Source: an uncultured Psychroserpens sp.
Lineage (GTDB): Bacteria; Bacteroidota; Bacteroidia; Flavobacteriales; Flavobacteriaceae
NCBI RefSeq assembly: GCF_947501425.1
Contig: NZ_CANMVN010000009.1
Span: 62,001-126,000, forward strand
DNA: 64,000 nt
Direction of reading: 5' to 3'
Part shown: positions 40,959-55,393 of the stretch, in pieces
Position numbering within the stretch: the stretch's first letter is position 1
How the letters are laid out: each line of letters opens with the position of its first letter
Made by a program: the position numbers and the translations under genes
Notes under the pieces: model-generated
What the model was told of the DNA's origin: nothing
Database searches by the model: none
Seen by the model: the letters and a program-made list of their open reading frames with translations, nothing else

Positions 40959-42041
40959 CTATCCATTAATAATCTTCTCCTGATGATTGATTGATTCCTG
41001 ATGAATCGCTTTAAATACACGCAAGATAAATTCTTCACTTAGATTTTTTTCTTCACCCTGAAGAATCATTTTGCCAAGAATTTCATTCCAACGTTTAGAT
41101 TGTAACACAGCAACATTATGATCTTTCTTTAATTGTCCGATATCATCAGCCACATTCATACGCTTTCCTAACATTTCTATCAATTGATGATCGATTACAT
41201 CAATTTGAGTCCTCATGGTATTAATTCTGTTTTTAAACTCAGTTGCTTCACCTACTTCTTTACGAATACGTAGATCTTCAGTAAATTTAATAAGCGTATC
41301 AGGCGTAATTTGCTGAGCAGCATCACTCCATGCATTATCAGGATCGTGATGTGTTTCAACCATTAATCCGTCATAATTGAGATCTAACGCAGTCTGACAA
41401 AGATCAAATATGATATCGCGACGTCCAGCAATATGCGATGGGTCTAATATCAATGGTAAATCTGGAAAACGGTCTTGCAGGTCAACAGCAATTTGCCATT
41501 CAGGATTATTTCTATATCTGGTTTTTTCATACGTTGAAAACCCTCTGTGGATCACCCCTAAATTTTTGACATCTGCCGTGTAGAAACGTTCTACAGCTCC
41601 TAACCATAATGCCAGATCTGGATTTACCGGATTCTTGATCAATACAGTTTTATCTGTTCCTTGTAATGCATCTGCAATTTCCTGAACAATAAACGGACTT
41701 ACAGTAGTACGAGCACCAATCCATAAAATATCAACATCATGTTTTAATGCCAAATCAACGTGATTGGCATTAGCCACTTCTGTAGTGGTCATCATTCCTG
41801 TTTCCTCCTTTGCCTTTTGCAACCATTTTAAACCTAGAGCACCAACACCTTCAAAATTACCTGGTCGTGTTCTTGGTTTCCAGATTCCTGCTCTCAATAC
41901 TGTAGCATCACTATCTTTCAACTGGTGTGCAATTTTTAAAACTTGTGCTTCGGTTTCGGCACTACATGGTCCAGCGATAACCAACGGATGTTCTAATCCG
42001 AATGCATCTAACCAACCTCTCAATTCCTTTTTATTTTCCAT
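40959..42041 (-). CDS. Bifunctional DAHP synthase / chorismate mutase
   Basis: 360 residues. The N-terminal DAHP synthase domain (about 1-265) has VIAGPCSAETE, RAGIWKPRTRPG, LIKNPVNPD and LDPSHIAGRRD. The C-terminal AroQ chorismate mutase domain (about 270-355) has MRTQIDVIDHQLIEMLGKRM and VLQSKRWNEIL. It combines the first step of the shikimate route with the branch-point step to prephenate, a fusion common in Bacteroidota. Last gene of the operon; feedback by the mutase domain is known in related enzymes. Confidence 0.93.
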   Translation of the reverse strand: MENKKELRGWLDAFGLEHPLVIAGPCSAETEAQVLKIAHQLKDSDATVLRAGIWKPRTRPGNFEGVGALGLKWLQKAKEETGMMTTTEVANANHVDLALKHDVDILWIGARTTVSPFIVQEIADALQGTDKTVLIKNPVNPDLALWLGAVERFYTADVKNLGVIHRGFSTYEKTRYRNNPEWQIAVDLQDRFPDLPLILDPSHIAGRRDIIFDLCQTALDLNYDGLMVETHHDPDNAWSDAAQQITPDTLIKFTEDLRIRKEVGEATEFKNRINTMRTQIDVIDHQLIEMLGKRMNVADDIGQLKKDHNVAVLQSKRWNEILGKMILQGEEKNLSEEFILRVFKAIHQESINHQEKIING

Positions 42042-42050
42042 AGTTTTTTA

Positions 42051-42902
42051 TTAAGCAATTCCTTTTAATATCTCTTTTATATGATTTGTATTTTTCATTT
42101 CGTTGTAGATCTCATCAAAATCATCGGCTTCCATTAAGGATTTAAACTGTTTCAAATTATTGATATACTCTTCTAAAGTCTCTATAACATTGGCTCTGTT
42201 TTGTTTAAAAATTGGAGTCCACATCGCAGGCGAACTTTTTGCCAAACGCACTGTACTCTCAAAACCACTTCCTGCCATATCAAAAATATCACGTTCGTTT
42301 TTTTCTTTTTCAATAACTGTTTTTCCTAACATAAATGAGCTGATGTGTGATAAATGTGACACATAAGCTATATGTTTATCATGAGCTTCAGGATTCATGT
42401 ATCGAATACGCATTCCTAAGTCGGAAAATAATTTCAAGGCTTTCTCCTGAAGTTTAAATGTTGTTTTTTCTACTTCGCAAATGATATTAGTTTTCTTCTG
42501 AAACAGACCTTGAATAGCTGCTTTTGGTCCAGAAAACTCAGTACCTGCTATAGGATGTGTTGCTAGAAAATTTCGACGTCTATTATGAGATTCAACCGTT
42601 TTACAAACCGGAAGTTTAGTAGATCCAACATCGATGACCAAGGTTGAATCTGATATAGCATCCAACACTTTAGGCAATTCTGAAACGGCTTTATCCACAG
42701 GTATGGAAAGTATGACCAAATCAGCATTATGTAAATCTTCATAAGTCGCTTTATGATCTATAATTTGAAGCGCTAAAGCTTCGTCCAAATGATCACTATT
42801 GGTATCTATTCCGAAGATATCAATATTAGCGTCCATAGACTTCATATCTAAAGCCATGCTCCCACCAATCAATCCAACGCCTATGATGTATATATTATTC
42901 AT
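42051..42902 (-). CDS. tyrA: Prephenate dehydrogenase
   Basis: 283 residues with an NAD-binding GVGLIGGSMALDM at the N-terminus, HPIAGTEFSGP (substrate-binding His region) and a helical C-terminal dimer domain with HISSFMLGK. It turns prephenate into 4-hydroxyphenylpyruvate for tyrosine. There is no ACT domain. The start codon is 1 bp after the aminotransferase stop, and 9 bp separate it from the DAHP synthase gene. Confidence 0.93.
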   Translation of the reverse strand: MNNIYIIGVGLIGGSMALDMKSMDANIDIFGIDTNSDHLDEALALQIIDHKATYEDLHNADLVILSIPVDKAVSELPKVLDAISDSTLVIDVGSTKLPVCKTVESHNRRRNFLATHPIAGTEFSGPKAAIQGLFQKKTNIICEVEKTTFKLQEKALKLFSDLGMRIRYMNPEAHDKHIAYVSHLSHISSFMLGKTVIEKEKNERDIFDMAGSGFESTVRLAKSSPAMWTPIFKQNRANVIETLEEYINNLKQFKSLMEADDFDEIYNEMKNTNHIKEILKGIA

Positions 42903-42903
42903 G

Positions 42904-44049
42904 TTAAGTTAATCTTGCTAATGCTTCTTCTAAATCGTCTTGAGATGCGCAAAGTGAAATTCGTATGTATCTACTTCCATTAGTTCCAAAAATGGTACCA
43001 GGCGCTATAAAAATGGATTTTTCTTTTAATATGAGATCTACATATTCTTCAGCATCTAAATAGTCTGGTAATTTTGCCCAAACAAATAATCCGGCTGCAC
43101 CAACGTCGTAAGTACAATTTAGAGCCTCAGCAATTTGCCATACTATTTTCCGACGTTGCTCATAAACGCTATTAAGACTTAGATACCAAATATCTGAACA
43201 GTTTAGCGCTTCAATAGCACCTTTTTGAATACCCAAAAACATTCCAGAATCCATATTACTTTTCACACGTAAAACGGCATTTATGTATTCACTTTTCCCT
43301 AATACCATACCTACACGCCAACCTGCCATATTAAAGGTTTTACTTAAGGAGTTCAACTCTAAGCAAACATCTTTAGCATCTTTATATTTAAGGATACTTC
43401 TTGGGTATCGATTCAGTACAAAGCTGTAAGGATTATCATTAACAATTAAAATATCATTGCGCTTGGCAAAGGTGATGAGATCTTCAAATAATTTGTTAGT
43501 GCCTTGTGCTCCTGTTGGCATGTGCGGATAGCTTACCCACATGAGTTTTACATTTTCCAGACCACGTTTTTCTAAAGCTACAAGGTCTGGAAACCAATTA
43601 TTCTCTTCAGTCAGATCATAAAATACAGGAGTAGCTCCAACCAAATTAGTCACCGATTTATAGGTTGGATAACCCGGATTTGGAATCAATACTTCATCGC
43701 CTTTGTTTAAAAATGCCATTGAAATGTGCAAAATCCCTTCTTTACTTCCCATGAGTGGCAAGACTTCAGTCAACGGACTCAAGGGCACATTAAAGTGTGT
43801 CTTATAGAAATTAGCAATAGCTTCTCTTAGTTCTGGTATTCCTTGATAGCTTTGATATTTGTGAGCACCATCTTCATTAAAGGTTTCAACAAGTGCGTTG
43901 AGTACGCGCTCTGGCGGATTGAGATCCGGACTACCAATACCTAAGTTTATAATAGGTTTCCCCTGAGACTTCAGTAATCTTACCTCACGTAATTTTTTTG
44001 AAAAGTAATACTCTTCTACATTTTTTAGTCGGTCAGCAATCTGTATCAT
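42904..44049 (-). CDS. PLP-dependent aminotransferase class I of the aromatic operon
   Basis: 381 residues, fold type I, with the PLP-Lys motif LNSLSKTFNMAGWRVG, NPGYPTYKS, SYPHMPTGA and the C-terminal RYIRISLCAS. In this operon it is likely to move the amino group to phenylpyruvate and 4-hydroxyphenylpyruvate, or to prephenate. It overlaps pheA by 4 bp (ATGA type), so the two are translationally coupled. Substrate is inferred from context only. Confidence 0.88.
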   Translation of the reverse strand: MIQIADRLKNVEEYYFSKKLREVRLLKSQGKPIINLGIGSPDLNPPERVLNALVETFNEDGAHKYQSYQGIPELREAIANFYKTHFNVPLSPLTEVLPLMGSKEGILHISMAFLNKGDEVLIPNPGYPTYKSVTNLVGATPVFYDLTEENNWFPDLVALEKRGLENVKLMWVSYPHMPTGAQGTNKLFEDLITFAKRNDILIVNDNPYSFVLNRYPRSILKYKDAKDVCLELNSLSKTFNMAGWRVGMVLGKSEYINAVLRVKSNMDSGMFLGIQKGAIEALNCSDIWYLSLNSVYEQRRKIVWQIAEALNCTYDVGAAGLFVWAKLPDYLDAEEYVDLILKEKSIFIAPGTIFGTNGSRYIRISLCASQDDLEEALARLT

Positions 44050-44873
44050 AGTCTTGCATTTTTATATTCTCCCAAAACTTTAAAATCCTGAGCCATTATT
44101 TCCATAATGGATTTAGCTTTTTTGTAATCGTCATAGGCCTCAAAAGTGATATCTACAAAAAAAGCATATTTCCAAGGTGTCTTAATTTTTGGCAGTGATT
44201 GTATCTTGGTTAAATTTAACTTACAATCACTTAAAACATTCAAAATAGTCGCTAAACTTCCTCTTTTATGGTCTAATTCAAATTTTACCGACGCTTTGTT
44301 TATTTGAGCTTCTGATATTTCAGAATTTTTAGTTTTTACAACAAAAAAGCGGGTTTCATTGTGTTTAATTGTTTGAATGCTCTCTGAAATAATCTGCAAA
44401 TCAAAGAGTTGAGCTGCTAATTTTGACGCAATAGCCGCTGTATTTTTAGTTTGATGCTTCTGAATGCGTTGAGCGACTTCAGCAGTATCCTTATCCTCAA
44501 TTAATTTGATATGCGGATATTGTTTGAAGAACTCTTTACATTGTAGAAGTGCCATTGGATGCGAATATACTTCTTTAATATCATCAATGGACTGCCCATG
44601 CAAAGCCATTAAATGATGTTGAATATCTAAATAATGCTCTCCAACAATGTGAAGGTTATGGTGATCTATCAGTGCGTAATTTGGTATGATAGATCCAGCT
44701 ATTGAATTTTCAATAGCCATAATAGCAGCATCAGTTGTTTGACTTATTATACTATCAACAACTTTATCGAAAGTAAGATACTCATTAACAAGAATTGTGT
44801 CATCAAAGAATTGTTGTGACACAATGTGATGAAATGATCCTTTAATTCCCTGTATGGCGACTGATTTTATCAT
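44046..44873 (-). CDS. pheA: Prephenate dehydratase with ACT domain
   Basis: With the start at 44873 the protein has 275 residues beginning MIKSVAIQGIKGSFHH. An upstream ATG at 44894 lies within the terminator hairpin and is rejected. The dehydratase domain (1-180) has GSFHHIVSQQFF, AAIASKLAAQLF and HNETRFFVV (TRF motif). The C-terminal ACT domain (about 190-270, FELDHKRGSLATILNVLSDCKLNLTKIQSLP) has the ESRP-like allosteric segment for phenylalanine. It is the first enzyme gene of the operon, controlled both by this ACT domain and by the leader peptide attenuator just upstream. Confidence 0.94.
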   Translation of the reverse strand: MIKSVAIQGIKGSFHHIVSQQFFDDTILVNEYLTFDKVVDSIISQTTDAAIMAIENSIAGSIIPNYALIDHHNLHIVGEHYLDIQHHLMALHGQSIDDIKEVYSHPMALLQCKEFFKQYPHIKLIEDKDTAEVAQRIQKHQTKNTAAIASKLAAQLFDLQIISESIQTIKHNETRFFVVKTKNSEISEAQINKASVKFELDHKRGSLATILNVLSDCKLNLTKIQSLPKIKTPWKYAFFVDITFEAYDDYKKAKSIMEIMAQDFKVLGEYKNARL

Positions 44874-44901
44874 AAAAAAAGTCTCGATTTTCATCGAGAC
44901 T
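44874..44901 (-). terminator. Attenuator terminator in front of pheA
   Basis: On the minus strand AGTCTCGAT - GAAA - ATCGAGACT is a perfect 9-bp stem with a GNRA-type tetraloop, followed by seven U residues ending at the pheA ATG. The 5' arm also matches GAGAC (44943-44939) in the leader, allowing an antiterminator to form. Confidence 0.88.
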
Positions 44902-44925
44902 CATAGTATTATTATTTTATATAAA

Positions 44926-45003
44926 TTATACATACAACGTCTCTCTCTTTTCGTTAAAAAAGAAATAAAACCAGCTATAATATGTATGATTTAGTGTATT
45001 CAT
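44926..45003 (-). CDS. pheL: Aromatic leader peptide of the pheA operon (attenuation leader)
   Basis: An open frame of 25 codons and a stop, starting ATG at 45003 and ending TAA at 44926. Residues 7-15 read YYSWFYFFF, and Tyr returns at residue 24, giving four Phe, four Tyr and one Trp in 25 residues. It lies 52 nt upstream of the pheA start with the attenuator hairpin between. The Phe codons at 44964-44956 fall in the 5' arm of a hairpin (CTTTTTT 44962-44956 with AAAAGAG 44951-44945). Stalling there would free GAGAC (44943-44939) to pair with GTCTC (44900-44896) of the terminator. The symbol is by analogy to enteric pheL; there is no sequence homology claim. Confidence 0.85.
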   Translation of the reverse strand: MNTLNHTYYSWFYFFFNEKRETLYV

Positions 45004-45128
45004 ATCGTTATTAGATTGCTAATGTAATTATTATTTTAAGAAATCAAAATTGTTAACCCATATTTTTAGGTTTAACATTTCAGTTTTAAAGAATTCTTAA
45101 TTTAAATCATCGCATTAGTTATAATTAG

Positions 45129-45153: not shown

Positions 45154-46050
45154 ATGTCTATTGAAGTAGAAAATGTTTCTAAAGTTTATGGCGAACAAAA
45201 AGCGCTTGATAACATTTCATTTACTGTAAATAAAGGTGAAATTGTAGGTTTTTTAGGTCCGAATGGTGCAGGAAAATCTACGCTTATGAAGATCTTAACT
45301 ACTTATATCAATGCCACCAAGGGTATTGCCAAAGTTAGTGGTTTCCATGTAGAAACTGATAAGAAAGCTGTTCAAAACAATGTTGGATATCTGCCAGAAC
45401 ACAATCCGTTGTACTTAGACATGTATGTTAAAGAATATCTTACATTCAATGCAGGTGTGTACAAAACATCGAAATCCAGAATTCAAGATGTCATAGAACT
45501 CACAGGTCTATCACCCGAAGCTCACAAAAAAATCGGTCAATTATCTAAAGGATATCGTCAGCGTGTTGGACTCGCTAATGCGTTGTTACATGATCCATCA
45601 GTTCTTATTTTAGATGAACCTACAACAGGTCTTGATCCTAATCAATTGGTGGATATCAGACATTTAATAAAAAATATTGGTAAAGATAAAACGATCTTTT
45701 TATCTACACATATCATGCAAGAGGTTGAAGCCATTTGCGATCGTGTGATCATTATCAACAAAGGACAAATTGTAGCCGATAAAAAGCTTAAAGACTTACG
45801 TGATGATCAAGAACAAACTGTTGTGGTTGAATTTGATTATCGTGTGGAAGACACGTTTTTACTAAAACTTCCAAATGCTAAGACCGTAAAGAATATTCAT
45901 GATTTCACTTACGAGATTACGTTCTCTACAACAGAAGACATGCGATCTCACGTATTTGATTTTGCTCATGATAATGAATTGAAGATTCTTCAGCTCAATC
46001 AGAAAAATGCAAGTTTAGAAAGTCTGTTCAGAGAGTTGACTTCAGAATAA
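45154..46050 (+). CDS. gldA: Gliding motility ABC transporter ATP-binding protein GldA
   Basis: 298 residues with Walker A GPNGAGKST (about 36-44), signature LSKGYRQRVGLA, Walker B VLILDEPTTGLDP and the switch His (LSTHIM). Sequence and length fit GldA, the ATPase of the GldAFG exporter linked to gliding and T9SS function. gldF and gldG are not next to it here; this separation is common in Bacteroidota. It is divergent from the pheA operon. Confidence 0.85.
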   Translation: MSIEVENVSKVYGEQKALDNISFTVNKGEIVGFLGPNGAGKSTLMKILTTYINATKGIAKVSGFHVETDKKAVQNNVGYLPEHNPLYLDMYVKEYLTFNAGVYKTSKSRIQDVIELTGLSPEAHKKIGQLSKGYRQRVGLANALLHDPSVLILDEPTTGLDPNQLVDIRHLIKNIGKDKTIFLSTHIMQEVEAICDRVIIINKGQIVADKKLKDLRDDQEQTVVVEFDYRVEDTFLLKLPNAKTVKNIHDFTYEITFSTTEDMRSHVFDFAHDNELKILQLNQKNASLESLFRELTSE

Positions 46051-55014: not shown

Positions 55015-55060
55015 TTTGAGTTATCTATCTAAATCGCAATAAATGAATCACGCTTTTAAG

Positions 55061-55140
55061 TAGAATTTAGCACCTTCTTAATGGCTTAAGGGTTGCTAAG
55101 GCTTCTTCGGGTCTATTCCCTCCGCCTTTCTTGATAACAT
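55061..55140 (-). ncRNA. SAM-I (S-box) riboswitch aptamer
   Basis: Read on the minus strand, the segment has all conserved SAM-I blocks in order: TTATCAAGAAAGGCGGAGGG, then GACCC-GAAGAAGCC, TTAGCAACC, a variable stem, and AAGGTGCTAAATTCTAC. The kink-turn/pseudoknot pieces are present in order. It should turn off metH transcription when SAM is high. The divergent gene is metK, which makes SAM. Confidence 0.93.
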
Positions 55141-55393
55141 TTCAATAAGTTATTGAACTTTGTGAATACAAATATTGCGACAGAATAGTTTAAAATCCAA
55201 ATAAATCATAAAAAAATTAAAATAAATCTACTTTCACTTTTATTTTTTTACTTTTGCCAAAGATTAATTTAGAGGAAAAATTTGTTCTGATTGCAACCTC
55301 ATAAAAAAAATGCTAAAGCAGTTAGTTTTCAACTTCTCTAGCGACTCAGCAATCTCAATTTATTTTTCAGAAAAACAAAATTTAAAAGGCTAT
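55141..55393. promoter_or_regulatory. Divergent metH / metK control region with metK -7 element
   Basis: This 253-bp stretch has no gene. On the plus strand TACTTTTG at 55249-55256 fits the TAnnTTTG motif for metK. No second SAM aptamer precedes metK. An in-frame ATG at 55310 would add 28 residues that metK homologues lack. Confidence 0.5.

Follow-up and report, generated by a model that had tools for sequence, protein, structure and literature searches.

A putative leader-peptide attenuator with mixed aromatic codons upstream of pheA in Flavobacteriaceae and other families of its class

The region directly upstream of pheA in the DNA examined here (a 64-kb stretch, hereafter the window) very probably acts as a ribosome-mediated transcription attenuator, judging from its sequence and that of its relatives. 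We identified the component parts and examined how well they are conserved, which pairings exclude each other, whether the antiterminator covaries in a wider set of genomes and how far the codons lie from the pairing element. An attenuator had been proposed in a preliminary description of this DNA, and conservation, exclusive pairings, covariation and spacing all support that interpretation.

Layout of the pheA leader region

The features of the locus are as follows.

45019-45048 (-): promoter-like site of the Bacteroidota type, read from the sequence: TTTG (45048-45045), 18 nt, then TACATTAG (45026-45019)
44926-45003 (-): candidate leader peptide ORF of 25 codons, MNTLNHTYYSWFYFFFNEKRETLYV and a stop codon, holding the run TYYSWFYFFF (sequence and translation)
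44956-44982 (-): putative sensor codons Tyr-Tyr-Ser-Trp-Phe-Tyr-Phe-Phe-Phe (sequence)
44945-44962 (-): Phe-codon hairpin (44962-44956 with 44951-44945) in the minimum-energy fold, within a longer 1:2 (protector) structure that also includes GAGAC
44939-44943 (-): GAGAC, putative 5' strand of the antiterminator; GAG kept in 51 of 51 close loci, covariation in the wider set
44896-44900 (-): GTCTC, putative 3' strand of the antiterminator and also terminator 5' arm; identical in 51 of 51 close loci
44874-44902 (-): predicted intrinsic terminator, 10-pair stem (44902-44893 with 44888-44879), 4-nt loop, seven T (44880-44874)
44046-44873 (-): pheA, prephenate dehydratase (Pfam PDT, 2.1e-55)
42904-44049 (-): class I/II aminotransferase (Pfam Aminotran_1_2)
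42051-42902 (-): tyrA, prephenate dehydrogenase (Pfam PDH_N, PDH_C)
40959-42041 (-): DAHP synthase-chorismate mutase fusion (Pfam DAHP_synth_1, CM_2)
45154-46050 (+): ABC transporter gene, the divergent upstream neighbour of the leader

The preliminary description had placed a 25-codon frame encoding TYYSWFYFFF upstream of pheA, a terminator whose seven U reach the pheA start codon, and a GAGAC able to pair with GTCTC. Each of these was found where it had been claimed: the frame at 45003-44926, the T run at 44880-44874 with the pheA ATG directly abutting it at 44873, and the two pairing strands at 44943-44939 and 44900-44896. It had also described the operon as one that makes DAHP, Phe and Tyr, in agreement with the Pfam matches, which show enzymes of the Phe/Tyr branch together with DAHP synthase. 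The gene upstream runs divergently, so that there is no codirectional gene for the terminator to end. A predicted intrinsic terminator thus stands between the candidate leader and the first structural gene, as it would in an attenuator.

The 130-nt leader region folds at -30.6 kcal/mol (z = -4.2), and only 1 of 200 dinucleotide shuffles was equally stable. A terminator scan found one site, whereas shuffles averaged 0.2. GTCTC has two alternative partners, GAGAC or the 3' arm of the terminator. The antiterminator of the window is longer than GAGAC-GTCTC, continuing through TTGTATGTAT paired with ATACTATGA.

The box ahead of the leader also recurs. Of 166 family loci, 152 have a TAnnTT(A/T/G)G box no more than 60 nt from the leader start, compared to 13 of 165 control windows, and the box combined with a TTG 14-26 nt ahead of it occurs in 112 of 166 and 4 of 165, respectively. 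In the available text of one study, TAnnTTTG is given as the flavobacterial sigma-A consensus (PMC9723704). A short ORF rich in aromatic codons therefore appears to lie behind a promoter-like site, an arrangement proper to an attenuator, and the region upstream of the leader presumably has promoter activity.

Rfam includes models of leaders, T-boxes and riboswitches. A search of the 64-kb window at the gathering score gave no match at the leader, the only matches being SAM and SAM-II. These two, a SAM (S box) riboswitch at 55018-55140 (-) and a SAM-II riboswitch at 55266-55326 (+), lie back to back in the window; the former precedes what we take to be a metH-like gene consisting of two ORFs (54983-53904 and 53904-51220), and the latter presumably a metK-like gene.

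Conservation and covariation

The pheA gene was found in all 23 genomes of the window's genus and in 226 of 249 genomes drawn from its family. Family upstream regions were those of the best 150 of the 226 pheA-bearing genomes, the 76 lower-scoring ones being left out, and 171 family loci were read: 30 from the family search, 21 more from the genus search and 120 fetched afterwards. Among the matches listed, 170 of these 171 loci have an aromatic leader and then a terminator ahead of pheA, and the sole miss (L016) is a contig that begins inside the leader, so that the leader start is absent. Under a fixed rule, 7 or more aromatic residues out of 11 inside 600 nt, 169 of the 171 regions among the matches listed qualified, compared to 12 of 513 dinucleotide shuffles; the two misses were the cut contig L016 and L007, whose leader lies beyond 600 nt. 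The best 80 named records among the matches listed behaved likewise: 78 qualified by the aromatic-leader rule, one of the others having only 150 nt of upstream sequence and the other a less aromatic leader. The named records put the window near Psychroserpens, and its relatives include Olleya, Lacinutrix, Bizionia, Formosa, Gelidibacter, Tamlana and Algibacter, which we take, in part from general knowledge, to be Flavobacteriaceae.

The aromatic codons persist while the leader RNA sequence diverges. Among the matches listed, the last 14 positions of 170 runs contain 800 F, 528 Y and 124 W; Tyr is present in all 170 runs, Trp is absent from 46, and F and Y swap for each other between loci. The terminator stem has 100% of its cells paired across 51 close loci. 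In two loci, L005 and L007, 228 and 568 nt separate the leader stop from pheA, with repeat-like stretches between them. A covariance model (R1) found one strong match and 16 weak ones (E 0.0089 and above) in the window's own genome. At E 0.01 it matched 178 of 249 family genomes, a count that takes in matches anywhere in a genome and hence gives no prevalence of the pheA leader.

We also examined 159 genomes drawn from the class, which we take to be Bacteroidia; at E 1e-10 pheA was matched in 42, of which 38 lie outside the family. Of these 38 loci, 22 reached a threshold of 6 aromatic residues in 11, compared to 13 of 380 shuffles, and 19 reached one of 7 in 11, compared to 1 of 380. The 22 loci span 13 families and include leaders such as MKLFNTYYFGYFYYFSKSRG and MNTFATYFFFFFYYFYFSNEVKREFVYVR. 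The putative mixed aromatic attenuator is thus seen in 14 families, that of the window included. The remaining 16 of the 38 had no leader at the 6-of-11 threshold; loci L222, L230 and L239 appear leader-like by eye and fall under that threshold. In another of the 16, L219, an ORF ends 2 nt before pheA, which may be internal to an operon there.

The antiterminator also draws support from covariation of its two strands. The 51 close relatives have GAGRY as the element and GTCTC as the terminator 5' arm without exception, and an inner stem of the AATTTA-TAAAT type in 39 of 51. In this close set the predicted energies of the hairpins alone are -9.4 to -16.7 kcal/mol for the antiterminator and -10.7 to -13.9 kcal/mol for the terminator. 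Pair counting in the 51 closest loci gave no covariation of the antiterminator above shuffles (250 of 500 shuffles reached the observed pairing), because the arms hardly vary. In the wider family the two strands change together, the matched pairs being GAGAC/GTCTC, GGGAC/GTCCC, GGGACT/AGTCCC, CAGGACT/AGTCCTG, TCGGAAC/GTTCCGA and CGGGAT/ATCCCG; the leader element GAGCGGGA likewise covaries with the terminator 5' arm TCCCGCTC. Outside the family the matched pairs include AGGCGGGA/TCCCGCCT, GGCAGGA/TCCTGCC and GAAGCGGGA/TCCCGCTTC.

Exchange of terminator arms between loci lowered the mean pairing score in every set. The family mean was 16.64 for cognate arms compared to 13.88 for exchanged arms (sd 0.23, maximum 14.65, 2000 permutations, n = 170, with L139, which has no helix by the rule used, scored as zero). 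For 73 rows dereplicated by pair type the values were 17.93 and 13.78 (maximum 14.99), and outside the family 18.74 and 14.38 (maximum 17.37, 5000 permutations, n = 19). A shuffled leader stretch scored 10.71 in 167 family loci and 12.13 in the 19 outside loci. These permutations ignore relatedness, an objection that is weaker for the outside set, which spans many families, and is not removed by it. The terminator caller omitted L010 and L149 (family) and L224, L234 and L240 (outside) from the dereplicated or outside-family test, although their hairpins are visible by eye, and L007 is absent from the dereplicated test since its leader lies beyond the stretch examined. Covariation in the wider set thus argues for an antiterminator that would be mutually exclusive with the terminator, as attenuation requires.

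This constraint appears to act on the RNA rather than on the peptide. Six genes of the window use GAA for Glu 97 times and GAG 32 times, and yet the GAG of the element is kept in 51 of 51 close loci. In L031, L032, L040 and L043 the leader stop precedes the GAGRY element and GAG is still retained. The element also occurs in all three leader frames, its G-triplet being distributed 103/3/58 in the family and 5/7/6 outside it. Both the retention of GAG against the codon preference of the window's genes and its retention behind an earlier stop, together with the three frames, therefore point to the RNA.

In the minimum-energy fold of the leader region the Phe-codon hairpin of the preliminary description does form, within a longer helix, and it is conserved, the wider 1:2 structure having 91% of cells paired in the 51 close relatives. 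However, its covariation in these 51 was not above shuffles; the structure tested contained one pair (columns 50-77) that is unformed in 47 of 51 sequences. The comparison with relatives that had been proposed found the frame, the aromatic codons and the terminator kept and, in the wider set, compensatory changes in GAGAC-GTCTC, but no covariation above shuffles for the Phe hairpin.

Ribosome position, proposed mechanism and alternatives

Spacing and truncated-RNA counts cover 166 family loci (among the matches listed) and 19 outside loci. Pairing begins 10-12 nt past the last aromatic codon in 125 of 166 and 6 of 19, respectively, and 9-12 nt past it in 155 of 166 and 12 of 19, with full ranges of 4-15 nt in the family and 7-14 nt outside. 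As scored, the last aromatic codon lies 12 nt ahead of GAGRY in 48 of 50 close loci, and an earlier GAG and a Tyr replacing the last Phe account for the apparent exceptions L013 and L025.

In our folding model the RNA was kept unpaired between the first base of the leader and a point 12 nt past the first base of the A-site codon, and was cut before the 3' arm of the terminator. With the ribosome over the aromatic codons, the mean antiterminator probability in this truncated RNA was 0.97 in the family and 0.92 outside it, and with the ribosome on the last aromatic codon it exceeded 0.5 in 164 of 166 and 18 of 19 loci. With the stop codon in the A site the mean was 0 and the probability exceeded 0.5 in none of the 166 or the 19, a result largely built into the masking rule. 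All eight aromatic codons of the window's run fall in the permissive zone (probability 0.81-0.99). When the assumed leading edge of the ribosome is displaced a few bases, the boundary changes by roughly one codon. Under the assumed footprints, then, a stalled ribosome would free the element and a terminating ribosome would cover it.

When full-length RNA was folded to equilibrium with the ribosome mask, the terminator won wherever the ribosome was placed (mean antiterminator probability no more than 0.06, 50 loci). Therefore, the order of synthesis must matter, the antiterminator forming first during transcription, as it does matter in classic attenuators. The ribosome-free truncated RNA prefers the antiterminator, whose probability exceeds 0.5 in 112 of the 166 family loci and in 16 of the 19 outside, unlike the textbook attenuation scheme, where a 1:2 hairpin restores termination if the RNA is not translated. 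The model predicts that readthrough, not termination, may follow when the leader is left untranslated.

We propose that RNA polymerase would start just upstream of the leader and be followed by a ribosome translating it. Where charged Phe-, Tyr- or Trp-tRNA is scarce, the ribosome would stall within the aromatic run with its leading edge just short of GAGAC, which could then pair with GTCTC before the 3' arm of the terminator is made, and with the antiterminator formed the polymerase would continue into pheA, the aminotransferase, tyrA and the DAHP synthase gene. Where aromatic amino acids are plentiful, the ribosome would reach the stop codon and cover GAGAC, leaving GTCTC to pair with the terminator 3' arm, and transcription would end before pheA. 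Promoter activity, ribosome stalling, transcript termination and responsiveness to the individual amino acids are what we infer from these comparisons. Provided that the mechanism holds, sensing of Phe would be very likely, of Tyr likely and of Trp plausible.

How many amino acids are read is less certain than the attenuation itself. The boldest interpretation, about which we are slightly more doubtful than convinced, is a class-wide OR gate for aromatic supply in which Phe, Tyr and often Trp would be read jointly, so that a shortage of any one opens the DAHP-Phe-Tyr operon. The switch would have been rebuilt repeatedly with new sequences in all three frames, the distance from codons to element staying near the ribosome footprint, and readthrough may be the default of untranslated RNA, in contrast to enteric trp. 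The same attenuator might instead sense chiefly phenylalanine, with the Tyr and Trp codons as passengers or fine tuning, a possibility to be taken seriously even if we lean against it. Phe is the commonest residue of the runs and Trp is missing from over a quarter of them (46 of 170, among the matches listed), and according to the available text on Corynebacterium glutamicum the aroR leader, which contains Phe-Tyr-Phe, answers to Phe limitation and not to Tyr (PMC11802643). However, Tyr occurs in every run among the matches listed and interchanges with Phe between loci, and in the model the element is freed to about the same degree whichever aromatic codon the ribosome stalls on.

The remaining alternatives depart further from the attenuator. 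That the hairpin buries the start region of pheA and so acts mainly on translation, not on transcription, is suggested by the T run abutting the ATG in the window; we consider it quite unlikely, since several relatives have a pheA start further downstream, L002, L005 and L007 for instance at 140, 228 and 568 nt past the leader stop, and in the 170 scored loci the stem is followed by T-rich sequence, as the scoring rule required. If the ORF were there by chance, a T-box or a riboswitch that binds a metabolite or a protein would account for a structured and strongly conserved RNA. It would not account for aromatic codons that outlast divergence of the RNA sequence, nor for an element that changes reading frame yet keeps a near-fixed distance from the codons, and the Rfam search that found two SAM riboswitches in the window found nothing at the leader. 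We regard this explanation as very improbable.

Relation to known systems

The preliminary description knew of no described aromatic attenuator in Flavobacteriaceae, a statement that is too strong. According to the available text of a 2021 study, F. psychrophilum and other genera of Flavobacteriaceae have a structured 5' element upstream of pheA, and in F. psychrophilum the regions ahead of amino-acid operons give strong hints of control by leader-peptide attenuation (PMC9723704). The F. psychrophilum element resembles the present one in gene, family and the lack of an Rfam match, and is likely identical with it; in its available text, that account comes without sequence, codons, pairing or spread beyond the family (PMC9723704). 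Attenuation is therefore not wholly new to Flavobacteriaceae, and what is new is the anatomy, the covariation, the codon mix and the spread. A full-text literature search, of partial coverage and without supplements, turned up PMC9723704 as the single directly relevant paper and found the anatomy, the covariation or the spread described in none. In their available text, PMC2965389 and PMC8632094 contain no words beginning with Bacteroid- or Flavobact(er)-, and a map of Bacteroides thetaiotaomicron reports short ORFs reminiscent of leader peptides (PMC7366714, available text).

In other phyla, two systems are comparable. The E. coli pheL-pheA attenuator is governed by charging of Phe-tRNA. The present locus differs from it in that Tyr codons and often Trp codons join those for Phe, the operon adds tyrA and DAHP synthase, and Rfam gives no match; the two share a leader peptide before pheA, as far as the available text describes E. 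coli (PMC11802643). The same text places a leader containing Phe-Tyr-Phe before an operon with DAHP synthase in C. glutamicum (aroR-aroF), as here, although with a shorter aromatic run, a response to Phe and not Tyr, and in another phylum (PMC11802643).

A mixed aromatic attenuator in 14 families would add a large regulatory system to another group and give testable predictions for flavobacterial amino-acid physiology. The leader set is also a natural sequence series for measuring the reach of the ribosome over RNA, and the element could become a curated RNA family, from which annotators could name the leader gene.

Elsewhere in the window's own genome, five-His patterns occur at 6 sites, none of which resembles a his leader. 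The trpE gene of the same genome is preceded by an ORF, MIINLNHTWWWNSRNSNFVS, that resembles a leader and has a terminator-like hairpin after it (L260, contig C7, upstream of 81822). This ORF belongs to a separate operon and has a Trp run where the pheA leader has Phe and Tyr, and both contain LNHT.
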